NCBI GenBank assembly: GCA_013214635.1
Contig: JABSSC010000045.1
Location: 1 to 36,653 of the forward strand
DNA from: Paracoccaceae bacterium
GTDB taxonomy: Bacteria; Pseudomonadota; Alphaproteobacteria; Rhodobacterales; Rhodobacteraceae
Direction of reading: 5' to 3'
Length of the DNA: 36,653 nucleotides
Position numbers and translations under genes: made by a program. Each line of letters starts with the position of its first letter. Positions within the stretch are counted from its first letter, which is position 1. Below are positions 29,180 through 32,982 of the stretch, piece after piece. The notes under the pieces are model-generated. The model made no database searches. It worked only from the letters and a program-made list of their open reading frames with translations, and was not told the DNA's origin.

Positions 29180-29848
29180 ATGCGTGCTGCCGTTCTTGTT
29201 TTTCCCGGATCAAATTGTGACCGCGATCTTGCGGTTGCCTTCAATGCTGCAGGCTTCTCGGTTGATATGGTTTGGCATAAGGATGCCAGCCTCCCAGACG
29301 GGATCGACATTGTGGGCATACCCGGTGGGTTTTCGTTCGGTGACTATCTGCGCTGCGGGGCGATCGCCGCGCGTTCGCCCATCACAAAGGCGTTGAAAGC
29401 TCATGTCGAGCGGGGTGGGTATGCGCTGGGCATTTGCAATGGCTTTCAGGTCCTGACCGAAACCGGCCTTTTGCCGGGGGCGTTGATGCGTAATGCGGCA
29501 CTCAAATTCGTATGTCGGACCGTGCCACTTGAAGTCGCGACCGCGAGTAGTGCCTTCACCGAAGGGTATTCACGCGGGCAGGTTCTACAAATCCCGGTGG
29601 CCCATCACGACGGCAACTACGTTGCGGATGACACATTGGCGGCGCAACTCAATGCCGAGGATCGCGTTGCGTTCCGCTATGGCGAAGAGGTTAACGGCGC
29701 GACGGATCGGATTGCCGGTGTGTTGTCAGAGAACCGGCGGGTGCTTGGCATGATGCCTCACCCTGAACGCGCGGCTGAGGCGGCACAGGGTTCATCTGAT
29801 GGCGCGGCGATGTTTGCGGGCTTGGCCGCAACTGCTTTGACCGCTTGA
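29180..29848 (+). CDS. purQ: FGAM synthase glutaminase subunit PurQ
   Basis: Class I glutamine amidotransferase that supplies ammonia for FGAM formation in purine synthesis. The 222-residue protein has AVLVFPGSNCDRDLA at the start, GGFSFGDYLRCGA, the nucleophile Cys86 in LGICNGFQVL and the His-Glu pair in MMPHPERA. AGGAGA precedes the ATG at 29180. It works with PurS (two genes upstream) and PurL (not seen). The dctB-like gene follows 31 bases later on the same strand with no clear terminator. Confidence 0.97.
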   Translation: MRAAVLVFPGSNCDRDLAVAFNAAGFSVDMVWHKDASLPDGIDIVGIPGGFSFGDYLRCGAIAARSPITKALKAHVERGGYALGICNGFQVLTETGLLPGALMRNAALKFVCRTVPLEVATASSAFTEGYSRGQVLQIPVAHHDGNYVADDTLAAQLNAEDRVAFRYGEEVNGATDRIAGVLSENRRVLGMMPHPERAAEAAQGSSDGAAMFAGLAATALTA

Positions 29849-29879
29849 GCGAGGGGCGCAGGCCGCTTACCTTACAGTT

Positions 29880-31637
29880 ATGTCTCAGACGACCACCAAC
29901 GACACCGAGCTTCCGCGCAAGGGAAGCTGGCGGTTCAGGTTTTTCTTCCTGGCCTCAATCGCTGCTGCGGCAACGGTGGTCTGGGTCACAAACCAACTCC
30001 TTACGGAACGGTTCACGGAAAGCACGCGTAACCGGGCAGAGGTGCGCCTAGCCTCTTATAGCGGTCAACTGATCAGTGAGTTGCAGCGAAACTCTGTCGT
30101 GCCGTTGCTGCTGTCGCGCGATCCAGCCTTGATCGGGGCGCTGAATTCCGGCGATTTTACGCAGTCGAGCCAGCGACTGATTTCGTATCGCGATGAGATT
30201 GGCGCGGCTGATCTGCGCCTTCTGGATGCGGACGGCCGGGTGGTTGCAGCTTCGGACCGGAATGAGTTGGGGGCGAGTTACCGAAACGAACCTTATTTTG
30301 TGAACGCACTGCGCTCCAACGACACGGTTTTCACGACAGTTCAACTTGAAAGCGGCGCGTCGGCCTTTTCCTATTCGCGCAAGATGGAGGCCGGACCTGA
30401 GCAGATCGGTGTGATTGTCGTCGAGGTCGATTTGGGCAAGTTTCAGCGCACTTGGGCCGGGTTCTCGGACGCTGTGGTCGTTGCCGATAGCGAGGGGCGG
30501 ATCATCCTGTCAACCGAGAGTCGCTGGCGCGGCCGCACCGAAGAAGAGGCGTTGCAATTGCGCTCTGCGCCGTCCGCTATTCAACGCGCCGTGCGCGCGA
30601 CGGCCGATTGGACAGCGCTGCCGCCCGATGCCTATCTCGCGGGTGAAGCCGTTATGCGGCAGGAAAGCCGCATCGGATTCCAGGGTTGGAAGATCACAAG
30701 CTTTACCACTTATGCCGGTGTACGTGACCGTGTGAACGCGGTCGTCGCACTGGAAGTTATGGGATTTGCGATTCTTCTTGCGGCGGCGTTCTATTTCCGA
30801 AGCCGCAACGTGACGTCGCGATTGCTGTTTTCCCAGCGCGAGTCGGCTGATTTGCGCCAGTTGAACGCGGTCTTACAGCGAGAAATTGCCGAGCGTGAGA
30901 AAGCGGAAAAGAACCTCGAAGTTGCCGAACAGACGATCCAGCAATCCTCGAAATTGGCCGTTCTGGGCGAGATGTCGGCGGCGGTCAGCCACGAGTTGAA
31001 TCAACCACTTGCCGCGATGAAGACCTACCTCGCTGGAGCGCGTCTATTGCTGCAACGCAACCGGCCCGAAGAAGCGTTGTCGTCCTACCAACGGATCGAC
31101 GACCTGATTGACCGGATGGGTGCCATTACCCGACAGCTCAAAAGCTATGCGCGAAAAGACGGCGAAGATACTGAAATCGTTGATGTTCGCAACGCTGTTC
31201 AATCCGCACTTGAGATGATGGAGCCGCAATTGCGGCAGCGCAATATTCCGATCACCAAGACACTTCCCAAGGACCCCGTCCTGACCTTCGCCGACCGCAT
31301 CCGGCTGGAGCAGGTTTTGGTCAACCTGCTACGTAATGCGCTTGATGCGACGTCGGGCGTACCGGACGCGGCGATTGATATTCTGGTCTCGAAAGGCGAC
31401 GAAATCTCGATCGCGGTGCGTGACAATGGTGCTGGTATCGACAACTTCGACAGTCTGTTCGAGCCCTTCTACACGACGAAGAAACCGGGGGATGGCGTGG
31501 GGCTTGGCCTTGCCATTTCATCGTCTATCGTCAACGACCTTGGGGGGCGCCTGACGGCGCGCAACGGATCCGAGCGCGGAGCCGTGTTCGAGGTGCGCTT
31601 ACCGATCAGTCGCGAACAAATCGAGGCAGCCGAGTAG
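29880..31637 (+). CDS. dctB: DctB-type sensor histidine kinase
   Basis: A 585-residue membrane kinase: transmembrane segments at about 21-40 and 288-306 enclose a double-Cache (PDC) periplasmic sensor with YRNEPYFVNALRSNDTVF, as in C4-dicarboxylate sensor DctB. A coiled coil (LNAVLQREIAEREKAEKNLE) leads to the H box AVSHELNQPLAAMKTY with His371, then NLLRNALDAT, DNGAGID and GDGVGLGLAISS. It is paired with the regulator gene seven bases downstream. No dicarboxylate or TRAP transporter is nearby, so the ligand is inferred from family only. Confidence 0.93.
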   Translation: MSQTTTNDTELPRKGSWRFRFFFLASIAAAATVVWVTNQLLTERFTESTRNRAEVRLASYSGQLISELQRNSVVPLLLSRDPALIGALNSGDFTQSSQRLISYRDEIGAADLRLLDADGRVVAASDRNELGASYRNEPYFVNALRSNDTVFTTVQLESGASAFSYSRKMEAGPEQIGVIVVEVDLGKFQRTWAGFSDAVVVADSEGRIILSTESRWRGRTEEEALQLRSAPSAIQRAVRATADWTALPPDAYLAGEAVMRQESRIGFQGWKITSFTTYAGVRDRVNAVVALEVMGFAILLAAAFYFRSRNVTSRLLFSQRESADLRQLNAVLQREIAEREKAEKNLEVAEQTIQQSSKLAVLGEMSAAVSHELNQPLAAMKTYLAGARLLLQRNRPEEALSSYQRIDDLIDRMGAITRQLKSYARKDGEDTEIVDVRNAVQSALEMMEPQLRQRNIPITKTLPKDPVLTFADRIRLEQVLVNLLRNALDATSGVPDAAIDILVSKGDEISIAVRDNGAGIDNFDSLFEPFYTTKKPGDGVGLGLAISSSIVNDLGGRLTARNGSERGAVFEVRLPISREQIEAAE

Positions 31638-31644
31638 GGGGGTC

Positions 31645-32982
31645 ATGCCGCAGTCTATGAAAATTGCGATTGTCGACGACGAGCAGGATATGCGTCAGTC
31701 GATCAGTCAGTGGTTGGCCTTGTCGGGGTTTCAGACCGAAACCTTTGGCAGTGCCGAGGACGCGCTCAAATCCGTTGGTGCGGATTTTCCAGGAGTGGTC
31801 GTATCGGATATTCGCATGCCGGGCATGGACGGGATGGCGCTACTCAAACGCCTGATGAGTGTCGACAAGGCGCTACCGGTGATCATGATCACGGGCCACG
31901 GCGACGTTCCTATGGCTGTTGAGGCGATGCGGATCGGTGCCTTCGACTTTCTGGAAAAGCCTTTCAACCCAGATCAGATGACCGAACTTGCCAAGCGTGC
32001 GACGTCGAACCGGCGCATGACACTGGACGGTCGGGCGCTCCGCCGCGAGTTGTCGGATGGTACGGGCCTGATGAAAAAGCTGGTGGGCAACTCCCCCGCG
32101 ATGGAGCGCCTCCGCGAAGACATCCTCGACCTTGGTCAGGCGGATGGGCATGTCTTGATTGATGGTGAGACTGGCACCGGCAAAACCTTGGCCGCTCATG
32201 CGCTTCATGCGGTGTCAGGTCGGGCAGGGAAAAAGTTCATCCTGCAATCCTGCGCGTCGCTGGATGAAGAAACGATGGCTCGCAAGCTCTTCGGGCCATT
32301 TGAAGAAGGTGGGGAACTTCCGCTGGTCGAGGCGGCGCGCGGCGGAACTTTGGTTCTTGAAGATATCGACGCCTTGGCACCTGCGCTTCAGGCACGACTG
32401 CTGACGTGGATCAATGAACAAGGCACTCCCGCGGAAACCCGGCTTGTCGCAATCTCGAACTTGCAAGTACAAGGTAAGACGGTCGAGGATGTGATACGCC
32501 CTGATCTGTTTTTCCGCTTGTCTGCTTTGCGCATCACGCCGCCGCCACTGCGCGCGCGGGGCGAGGACATTTTGACGCTGTTTGCCCGATTCTCTGAGCG
32601 ATTTGCCGACGAGTACGGTTGCGAAGCGCCCGAGCTAACAGCGCAAGAGGCCGCTGATCTTTTGCAGGCGCCTTGGCCGGGGAATATTCGACAGCTGTCC
32701 AACATCGCTGAGCGTGCCGTCTTGCAAAGCCGACGTGGGACGGGGACGATTACGTCTTTGCTGATGTCGGACGCGGATGAAACGCAGGCGACGCCTACGA
32801 TGACGACCGAGGGCAAGCCGCTAAAGGAATATGTTGAAGCCTTTGAGCGTATGTTGATCGATAGCACGATGCGTCGCCATCGTGGTTCGATCGTTGCAGT
32901 CATGGACGAGCTTTGTTTGCCGCGCCGGACGTTGAACGAAAAGATGGCCAAATACGGCCTTCAGCGTTCGGATTATCTCTGA
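31645..32982 (+). CDS. dctD: DctD-like response regulator lacking the GAFTGA loop
   Basis: A 445-residue NtrC-type regulator: receiver domain with phosphoacceptor Asp55 (VVSDIRMPGMDG), AAA+ domain with Walker A GETGTGKT (174-181) and the putative Arg-finger block RPDLFFRLSAL, then a C-terminal Fis-like helix-turn-helix (RHRGSIVAVMDELCLPRRTL). The sigma-54 contact loop GAFTGA is absent: after LFG (215-217) comes PFEEGGELPLVEAAR, shorter than usual, and Walker B reads LVLEDID instead of LFLDEI. It probably does not open sigma-54 promoters in the classical way; Rhodobacter capsulatus NtrC is a known parallel. It is co-transcribed with dctB and with the gene four bases downstream. Confidence 0.9.
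   Translation: MPQSMKIAIVDDEQDMRQSISQWLALSGFQTETFGSAEDALKSVGADFPGVVVSDIRMPGMDGMALLKRLMSVDKALPVIMITGHGDVPMAVEAMRIGAFDFLEKPFNPDQMTELAKRATSNRRMTLDGRALRRELSDGTGLMKKLVGNSPAMERLREDILDLGQADGHVLIDGETGTGKTLAAHALHAVSGRAGKKFILQSCASLDEETMARKLFGPFEEGGELPLVEAARGGTLVLEDIDALAPALQARLLTWINEQGTPAETRLVAISNLQVQGKTVEDVIRPDLFFRLSALRITPPPLRARGEDILTLFARFSERFADEYGCEAPELTAQEAADLLQAPWPGNIRQLSNIAERAVLQSRRGTGTITSLLMSDADETQATPTMTTEGKPLKEYVEAFERMLIDSTMRRHRGSIVAVMDELCLPRRTLNEKMAKYGLQRSDYL

Follow-up and report, generated by a model that had tools for sequence, protein, structure and literature searches.

A DctD-like response regulator without the sigma-54 interface, widespread in Rhodobacteraceae

The dctBD locus and its regulator

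The window, i.e., the whole stretch of 36,653 nucleotides that was analyzed, carries a gene pair for a DctB-like sensor kinase and a DctD-like response regulator. The features of this locus are as follows.

29845..29873, + strand: sigma-70-type promoter of dctBD, TTGAGC-N17-TACCTT
29880..31637, + strand: partner gene, DctB-like sensor kinase (Pfam dCache_1, HisKA, HATPase_c)
31645..32982, + strand: DctD-like response regulator without sigma-54 interface, 445 aa (155 aligned orthologues, dN/dS ~0.08)
31663..31989, + strand: receiver domain, residues 7-115 (PF00072, E 1.4e-31); D11, D12, D55, T83 and K105 invariant in 155 orthologues
31807-31809, + strand: phospho-acceptor Asp55, invariant in 155 orthologues
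32164..32187, + strand: intact Walker A GETGTGKT, residues 174-181; Lys180 in 155/155, Thr/Ser181 in 155/155
32248..32250, + strand: switch asparagine position, here Ser202 (of 155: S 124, N 10, others 21)
32296..32340, + strand: L1/GAFTGA deletion site, residues 218-232, from the orthologue alignment
32350..32367, + strand: altered Walker B LVLEDI, E239-D240, from the residue table of 155 orthologues
32416..32439, + strand: shortened L2/pre-sensor-I hairpin, residues ~258-265, from the alignment; the structure model has no hairpin here
32497..32517, + strand: Arg fingers R285 and R291, each in 155/155
32821..32979, + strand: Fis-type HTH with recognition segment PRRTLNEKMAKY

The regulator has the NtrC-type architecture, consisting of a receiver, an AAA+ domain, an AAA lid and a Fis-type HTH. 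The corresponding Pfam matches (Response_reg at residues 7-115, Sigma54_activat at 146-297, the AAA lid and HTH_8 at 397-437) all exceed the gathering cut-offs. With receiver, Sigma54_activat AAA+ domain and Fis HTH all present, the protein belongs by descent to the bEBP-derived AAA+ response regulators. Its receiver is 48% identical to the solved DctD receiver 1qkk.

The order purC-purS-(adh)-purQ-dctB-dctD-rne is found in 80 named loci, as far as the contigs reach, and pur-dctB-dctD is kept in most of the diverged members (44-60% identity). Neither the 80 named loci nor the diverged members have an adjacent transporter. In the window, the two promoter hexamers, TTGAGC (29845-29850) and TACCTT (29868-29873), are followed after 6 nt by the dctB ATG at 29880, and the -35 overlaps the purQ stop codon. 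The same architecture, with a TTG(A/T)-type -35 (CTTGAG), a 17-bp spacer, TAnnnT and the ATG ~6 nt further on, recurs in 66 of 80 loci (the window and 79 relatives), against a mean of 0.03 and a maximum of 1 in shuffled sequences. By its position, the dctB start is probably leaderless across the family. A generic promoter scan of the locus gave 1 match, with 1.0 expected by chance; such a scan misses the conserved dctBD promoter because of its strict hexamers. Besides this promoter, nothing in the purQ-dctB gap is conserved that could serve as a site for autoregulation.

Loss of the sigma-54 contacts and the altered ATPase site

bEBPs touch sigma-54 and the -12 region of the promoter DNA with two loops, L1 and L2 (PMC7175178). 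The window regulator reads LFG-PFEEGGELPLVEAAR-GGTLVLEDID, and the gap from LFG to GGT is 15 residues, compared to 21 in GAFTGA-bearing DctDs. A GAFTGA-like motif occurs in none of the 155 non-identical orthologues (0/155); their L1 stretch is 13-16 residues long in 153 cases, within 13-18 in 154 and 26 in one. The deletion of the sigma-54-engaging loop, claimed earlier from the window sequence by itself, is thereby confirmed across the clade. L2/pre-sensor I, the other loop that touches sigma-54, has been largely deleted along with L1: 145 of 155 orthologues have just 7 residues from the preceding helix to the sensor-I strand, fewer than canonical DctDs.

The altered Walker B noted in the same reading also holds for the orthologues. 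Its acids are in the order ED instead of the canonical DE, the first being E in 155/155 and the second D in 143, N in 6, G in 4, H in 1 and E in 1. A functional sigma-54 bEBP has a Walker A together with a DE-type Walker B; the clade has a sound Walker A throughout (155/155) and a Walker B other than DE. In bEBPs, the pair formed by the Walker B Glu and the switch Asn couples hydrolysis to loop movement (PMC7175178). The changes in L1, L2, Walker B and the switch Asn position are neither sequencing errors nor private to the window.

Other parts of the protein are strictly kept. Walker A and the HTH were rightly described as intact: the Walker A Lys, both Arg fingers, the sensor II Arg and the receiver residues listed above are invariant across the 155 orthologues, as are most positions of the recognition segment. 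Estimates of dN/dS (Nei-Gojobori, 344 close pairs with dS < 1) are 0.076 for the whole protein, 0.06 for the receiver, 0.097 for the AAA+ domain and 0.03 for the HTH. These values indicate that the protein is functional and that DNA binding is its most constrained part. In two diverged clade members, the Walker A Lys is replaced by Arg (GERGAGR) and the Arg-finger positions are altered. A single genus has a dctD orthologue broken in two near residues 300-303, probably by a frameshift (G049, contig C1, 1372291-1373618).

The loss of two loops, the altered Walker B and the split copy in that genus could suggest that the protein is the decaying relic of a sigma-54 activator. This is hardly credible, given a dN/dS of ~0.08, receiver and HTH residues that are invariant over 155 orthologues, and the conserved synteny and promoter.

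An acid is present at the second Walker B position in 144 of 155 orthologues and the sensor I Asn in 148 of 155, so a loss of hydrolysis, as read from these residues, is not certain. Moreover, Caulobacter NtrC, which also has no GAFTGA, requires its Walker A and B residues (PMC10274813), and hydrolysis loss in the window clade should therefore not be taken as settled.

In an AlphaFold model of the regulator, based on a 46-row alignment (pLDDT 88.4, pTM 0.56), the AAA+ core is intact and both the L1 and the L2 hairpin are absent. Foldseek ranks NtrX (5m7n-p) first for this model, followed by NtrC1, NtrC4, LuxO and VpsR. The global TM score is only ~0.5 because the domain packing differs; AAA+ domains alone give 0.7-0.8.

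Sigma-54 in the family and the paralogous DctD clades

The distribution of the regulator was surveyed in 298 Rhodobacteraceae genomes, one per genus, and the protein search returned a match in 280 of them. The best matches fall into two ranges: orthologues, with E below ~1e-136 and ~50% identity and above, and matches to paralogues only, at ~1e-95 or worse. For a few short or diverged members with intermediate values, the assignment was made by synteny or by the tree. The cut-off for rpoN was passed by 92 of the 298 genomes, by one of them (G076) only just. In a hand count, an orthologue is present in ~196 of 206 rpoN-less genomes (~95%) versus ~78 of 92 rpoN-bearing ones (~85%). The clade is thus found in ~270 genera, most of them without rpoN; over a quarter have this sigma factor gene as well. 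The 155 aligned orthologues were drawn from both kinds of genera.

The window genome, in an assembly of 348 contigs that is 96.5% complete, gave no match to Sigma54_DBD or Sigma54_CBD (PF04552, PF04963); the controls of this search, E. coli, B. subtilis, Caulobacter and Bacteroides, were positive. In an assembly of this completeness, the missing rpoN is no proof by itself; a GAFTGA protein or activator was likewise not found in the window genome. Apart from the DctD-like regulator, its only bEBP-type proteins are a loopless NtrC and a HupR-like protein carrying GAIPGV. The HupR-like regulator, in which GAIPGV is a degenerate motif, adjoins a hydrogenase-type gene (contig C126, 952-2454). The NtrC has lost the whole L1 region and lies beside ntrB (contig C43, 1075-2448); NtrX was not found, possibly because the contig ends.

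Since rpoN-less genera retain the orthologue, retention of the regulator does not need sigma-54, and for most of the clade sigma-54 dependence is excluded. Loop loss as a result of rpoN loss was considered and rejected: the loopless protein is identical in type in genera that keep rpoN, so it is no by-product of a recent loss of the sigma factor. Dating the loop loss by the place where rpoN was lost fails for the same reason. The presence of the regulator in 78 of 92 rpoN-bearing genera would fit a sigma-54 partnership that persists wherever sigma-54 exists, with another protein providing the function of the loop. This is very improbable, as ~196 of 206 rpoN-less genera keep a protein with the same features and both contact loops are reduced; an indirect role of sigma-54 is conceivable in the rpoN-bearing genera that carry the regulator. 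Action through sigma-70 promoters or through repression had been proposed in the sequence-only reading. Independence from sigma-54 is upheld by the lack of rpoN and of a GAFTGA activator in the window genome and by the retention in rpoN-less genera; judged from sequence, the action may be activation or repression.

Besides the window clade, Rhodobacteraceae have two further clades of DctD paralogues without L1. The first (HTH GIGRRTLNEKI) lies beside a TRAP operon and has kept the DE of Walker B. The second (HTH LPRKTFYDKL) also has no Walker A Lys any more and is encoded upstream of a DctP-like gene. In ten loci of this dctP-linked clade, Walker A reads GAPGSGTP or GPPGSGIS while the DE of Walker B is kept, which is the reverse of the situation in the window clade. 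The recognition helix core RRTLNEK is common to the window clade and the TRAP-linked clade.

In the tree, each of the three DctD clades is single. The window clade (support 100) joins the GAFTGA-bearing DctDs, apart from NtrX, at a fork with support 93; the deeper order, and with it the place of the clade among DctD proteins, is tentative. An independent loss of the loop in the three clades was considered and not upheld, as AU tests do not reject joined clades (p 0.46 for the window and TRAP-linked clades, W+T; p 0.22 for W+C; p 0.19 for all). In ten further DctD-like loci, some of them from rpoN-less genomes, GAFPGA, GAFAGA or GAFPNA replaces GAFTGA. Several of the GAFPGA-type DctBD pairs have no dicarboxylate transporter within the stretch compared, and transporter linkage is used here only for the two paralogue clades in which it was seen.

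In both paralogue clades, TGCGGANNTCCGCA palindromes lie between dctD and dctP. Palindromes of the TGCGGAAATCCGCA type were observed between the dctD paralogues and dctP in two sets of six and eight loci, sometimes in tandem, and in this mostly rpoN-less family they are likely, from their placement, to be the operators of the loopless DctDs at TRAP operons. The TGCGGANNTCCGCA palindrome presumably resembles the upstream site of rhizobial DctD. Both of these paralogue clades are missing from the window genome, as are exact copies of TGCGGANNTCCGCA. As a target operator in the window genome, TGCGGANNTCCGCA was rejected: 18 sites with one mismatch were found versus 9 for a reversed-pattern control, and of the 15 that were inspected, most lie in coding sequence, one is terminator-like and none is convincing.

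A linked DctB-type kinase, as expected for a DctD, is present at the window locus, and among solved structures its sensor domain best matches V. cholerae 3by9 and S. meliloti DctB (2zbb/3e4o). In DctB, the Arg of the FRxYF/WRxYF motif binds the carboxylate. This Arg (FRDYF/WRPYF in S. meliloti and V. cholerae) aligns with a Glu in the window kinase (YRNEPYF), and the family consensus is variable at this position. A dicarboxylate transporter, either linked or bearing the operator, is lacking: no transporter is adjacent and no exact operator copy exists. As the other two clades flank dctP with operators and are both absent from the window genome, the best claims to dicarboxylate regulation in the family, judged by gene neighborhood, belong to those paralogues and not to the window gene. 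Of the normal DctB partner and dicarboxylate-type signaling proposed earlier, the DctB-like sensor domain stands; the motif Arg is displaced, the transporter is missing and the DctD-type operators lie beside other paralogues. The dicarboxylate assignment of the window regulator is accordingly weak. A true C4-dicarboxylate regulator, with DctD function rewired to sigma-70 promoters of dctPQM, is unlikely: the DctB-like sensor domain and the helix core shared with the TRAP-linked clade point to it, and the transporter-free loci, the operators adjoining the other two clades and the unconserved position of the motif Arg point away from it.

Proposed mechanism and comparison with known systems

At a probability of roughly 70%, the window protein descends from a sigma-54 activator and is now the DNA-binding half of a two-component system, controlled by phosphorylation, stabilized by ATP binding rather than hydrolysis and acting at sigma-70 promoters like R. 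capsulatus NtrC. The dctBD operon itself would be transcribed from its sigma-70-type promoter. Asp55 would be phosphorylated by the DctB-like kinase, and phosphorylation and ATP binding may together drive assembly on DNA, with hydrolysis weak or dispensable. The DNA-bound oligomer would then activate or repress sigma-70 promoters via contact or occlusion, as R. capsulatus NtrC does. The action at sigma-70 promoters is deduced from the absence of sigma-54.

Alternatively, the regulator could be a repressor or anti-activator only, with the phosphorylated oligomer blocking sigma-70 polymerase or another activator at its operators. Repression is seen at some Caulobacter NtrC sites, where binding occurs close to CtrA sites (PMC10274813), and the stronger conservation of the DNA-binding domain compared to the AAA+ domain fits this possibility, which has about one chance in three. 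The conservation of Walker A, the Arg fingers and sensor II shows that nucleotide-dependent assembly is still under selection, an observation compatible with activation and repression alike. In R. capsulatus, NtrC is a genuine activator (PMC10274813).

A broader version of the sigma-70 reading, to which we give slightly less than even odds, is that the DctD-like regulators of Rhodobacteraceae left sigma-54 as a group. The three GAFTGA-less clades would then have ATPase sites that degenerated in different ways, and the window clade would have turned into an AAA+ assembly switch that binds nucleotide without hydrolysing it and serves sigma-70 promoters; its signal may be other than a dicarboxylate.

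Where an organism lacks sigma-54, annotating such proteins as sigma-54-dependent is an error. The clade spans ~270 genera, with many marine bacteria among them, and offers a natural series from an AAA+ remodelling motor to an ordinary regulator. It is suited to asking whether ATP persists as a structural ligand, and the genera with and without rpoN are ready controls. GAFTGA-less relatives among the bEBPs are already known, namely NtrC, NtrX, HupR, VpsR and TyrR (PMC3162934, PMC10274813), and for Jannaschia, which lacks sigma-54, a putative activator whose GAFTGA is altered has been noted (PMC3162934). A description of the purQ-linked clade or its Walker B and L2 changes was not found in the open-access papers searched, which is no proof of novelty.

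The window protein shares with S. meliloti DctD and the GAFTGA-bearing alphaproteobacterial DctDs the receiver-AAA+-Fis HTH layout and the DctB-like kinase encoded upstream. Unlike in S. meliloti-type systems, there is no GAFTGA, no rpoN and no linked dctA or dctPQM, and the identity to GAFTGA-bearing relatives is ~40%. NtrX from Brucella (5m7n/5m7o/5m7p), which has no GAFTGA and binds ATP, is the best whole-chain match in both sequence and fold. However, the identity is only 31-32%, NtrX forms a separate clade in the tree and it keeps the DE of Walker B. HupR, VpsR, TyrR and DhaR are likewise bEBP relatives with a lost or altered GAFTGA that act at sigma-70 promoters (PMC3162934, PMC10274813), but they differ from the window protein in family, signals and targets.

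The comparison with R. capsulatus NtrC, drawn already in the sequence-only reading, is apt. R. capsulatus NtrC has no GAFTGA and acts with sigma-70, for which phosphorylation and ATP binding are needed and hydrolysis is not; it is reported to be independent of sigma-54, as is Caulobacter NtrC (PMC10274813). Like these two proteins, the window regulator has the group I bEBP layout with GAFTGA/L1 deleted and with Walker A and the phospho-accepting Asp kept. It differs from R. capsulatus NtrC in belonging to the DctD branch and in a Walker B that reads ED, EN or EG instead of DE, whereas the loopless NtrC of the window genome keeps DE.
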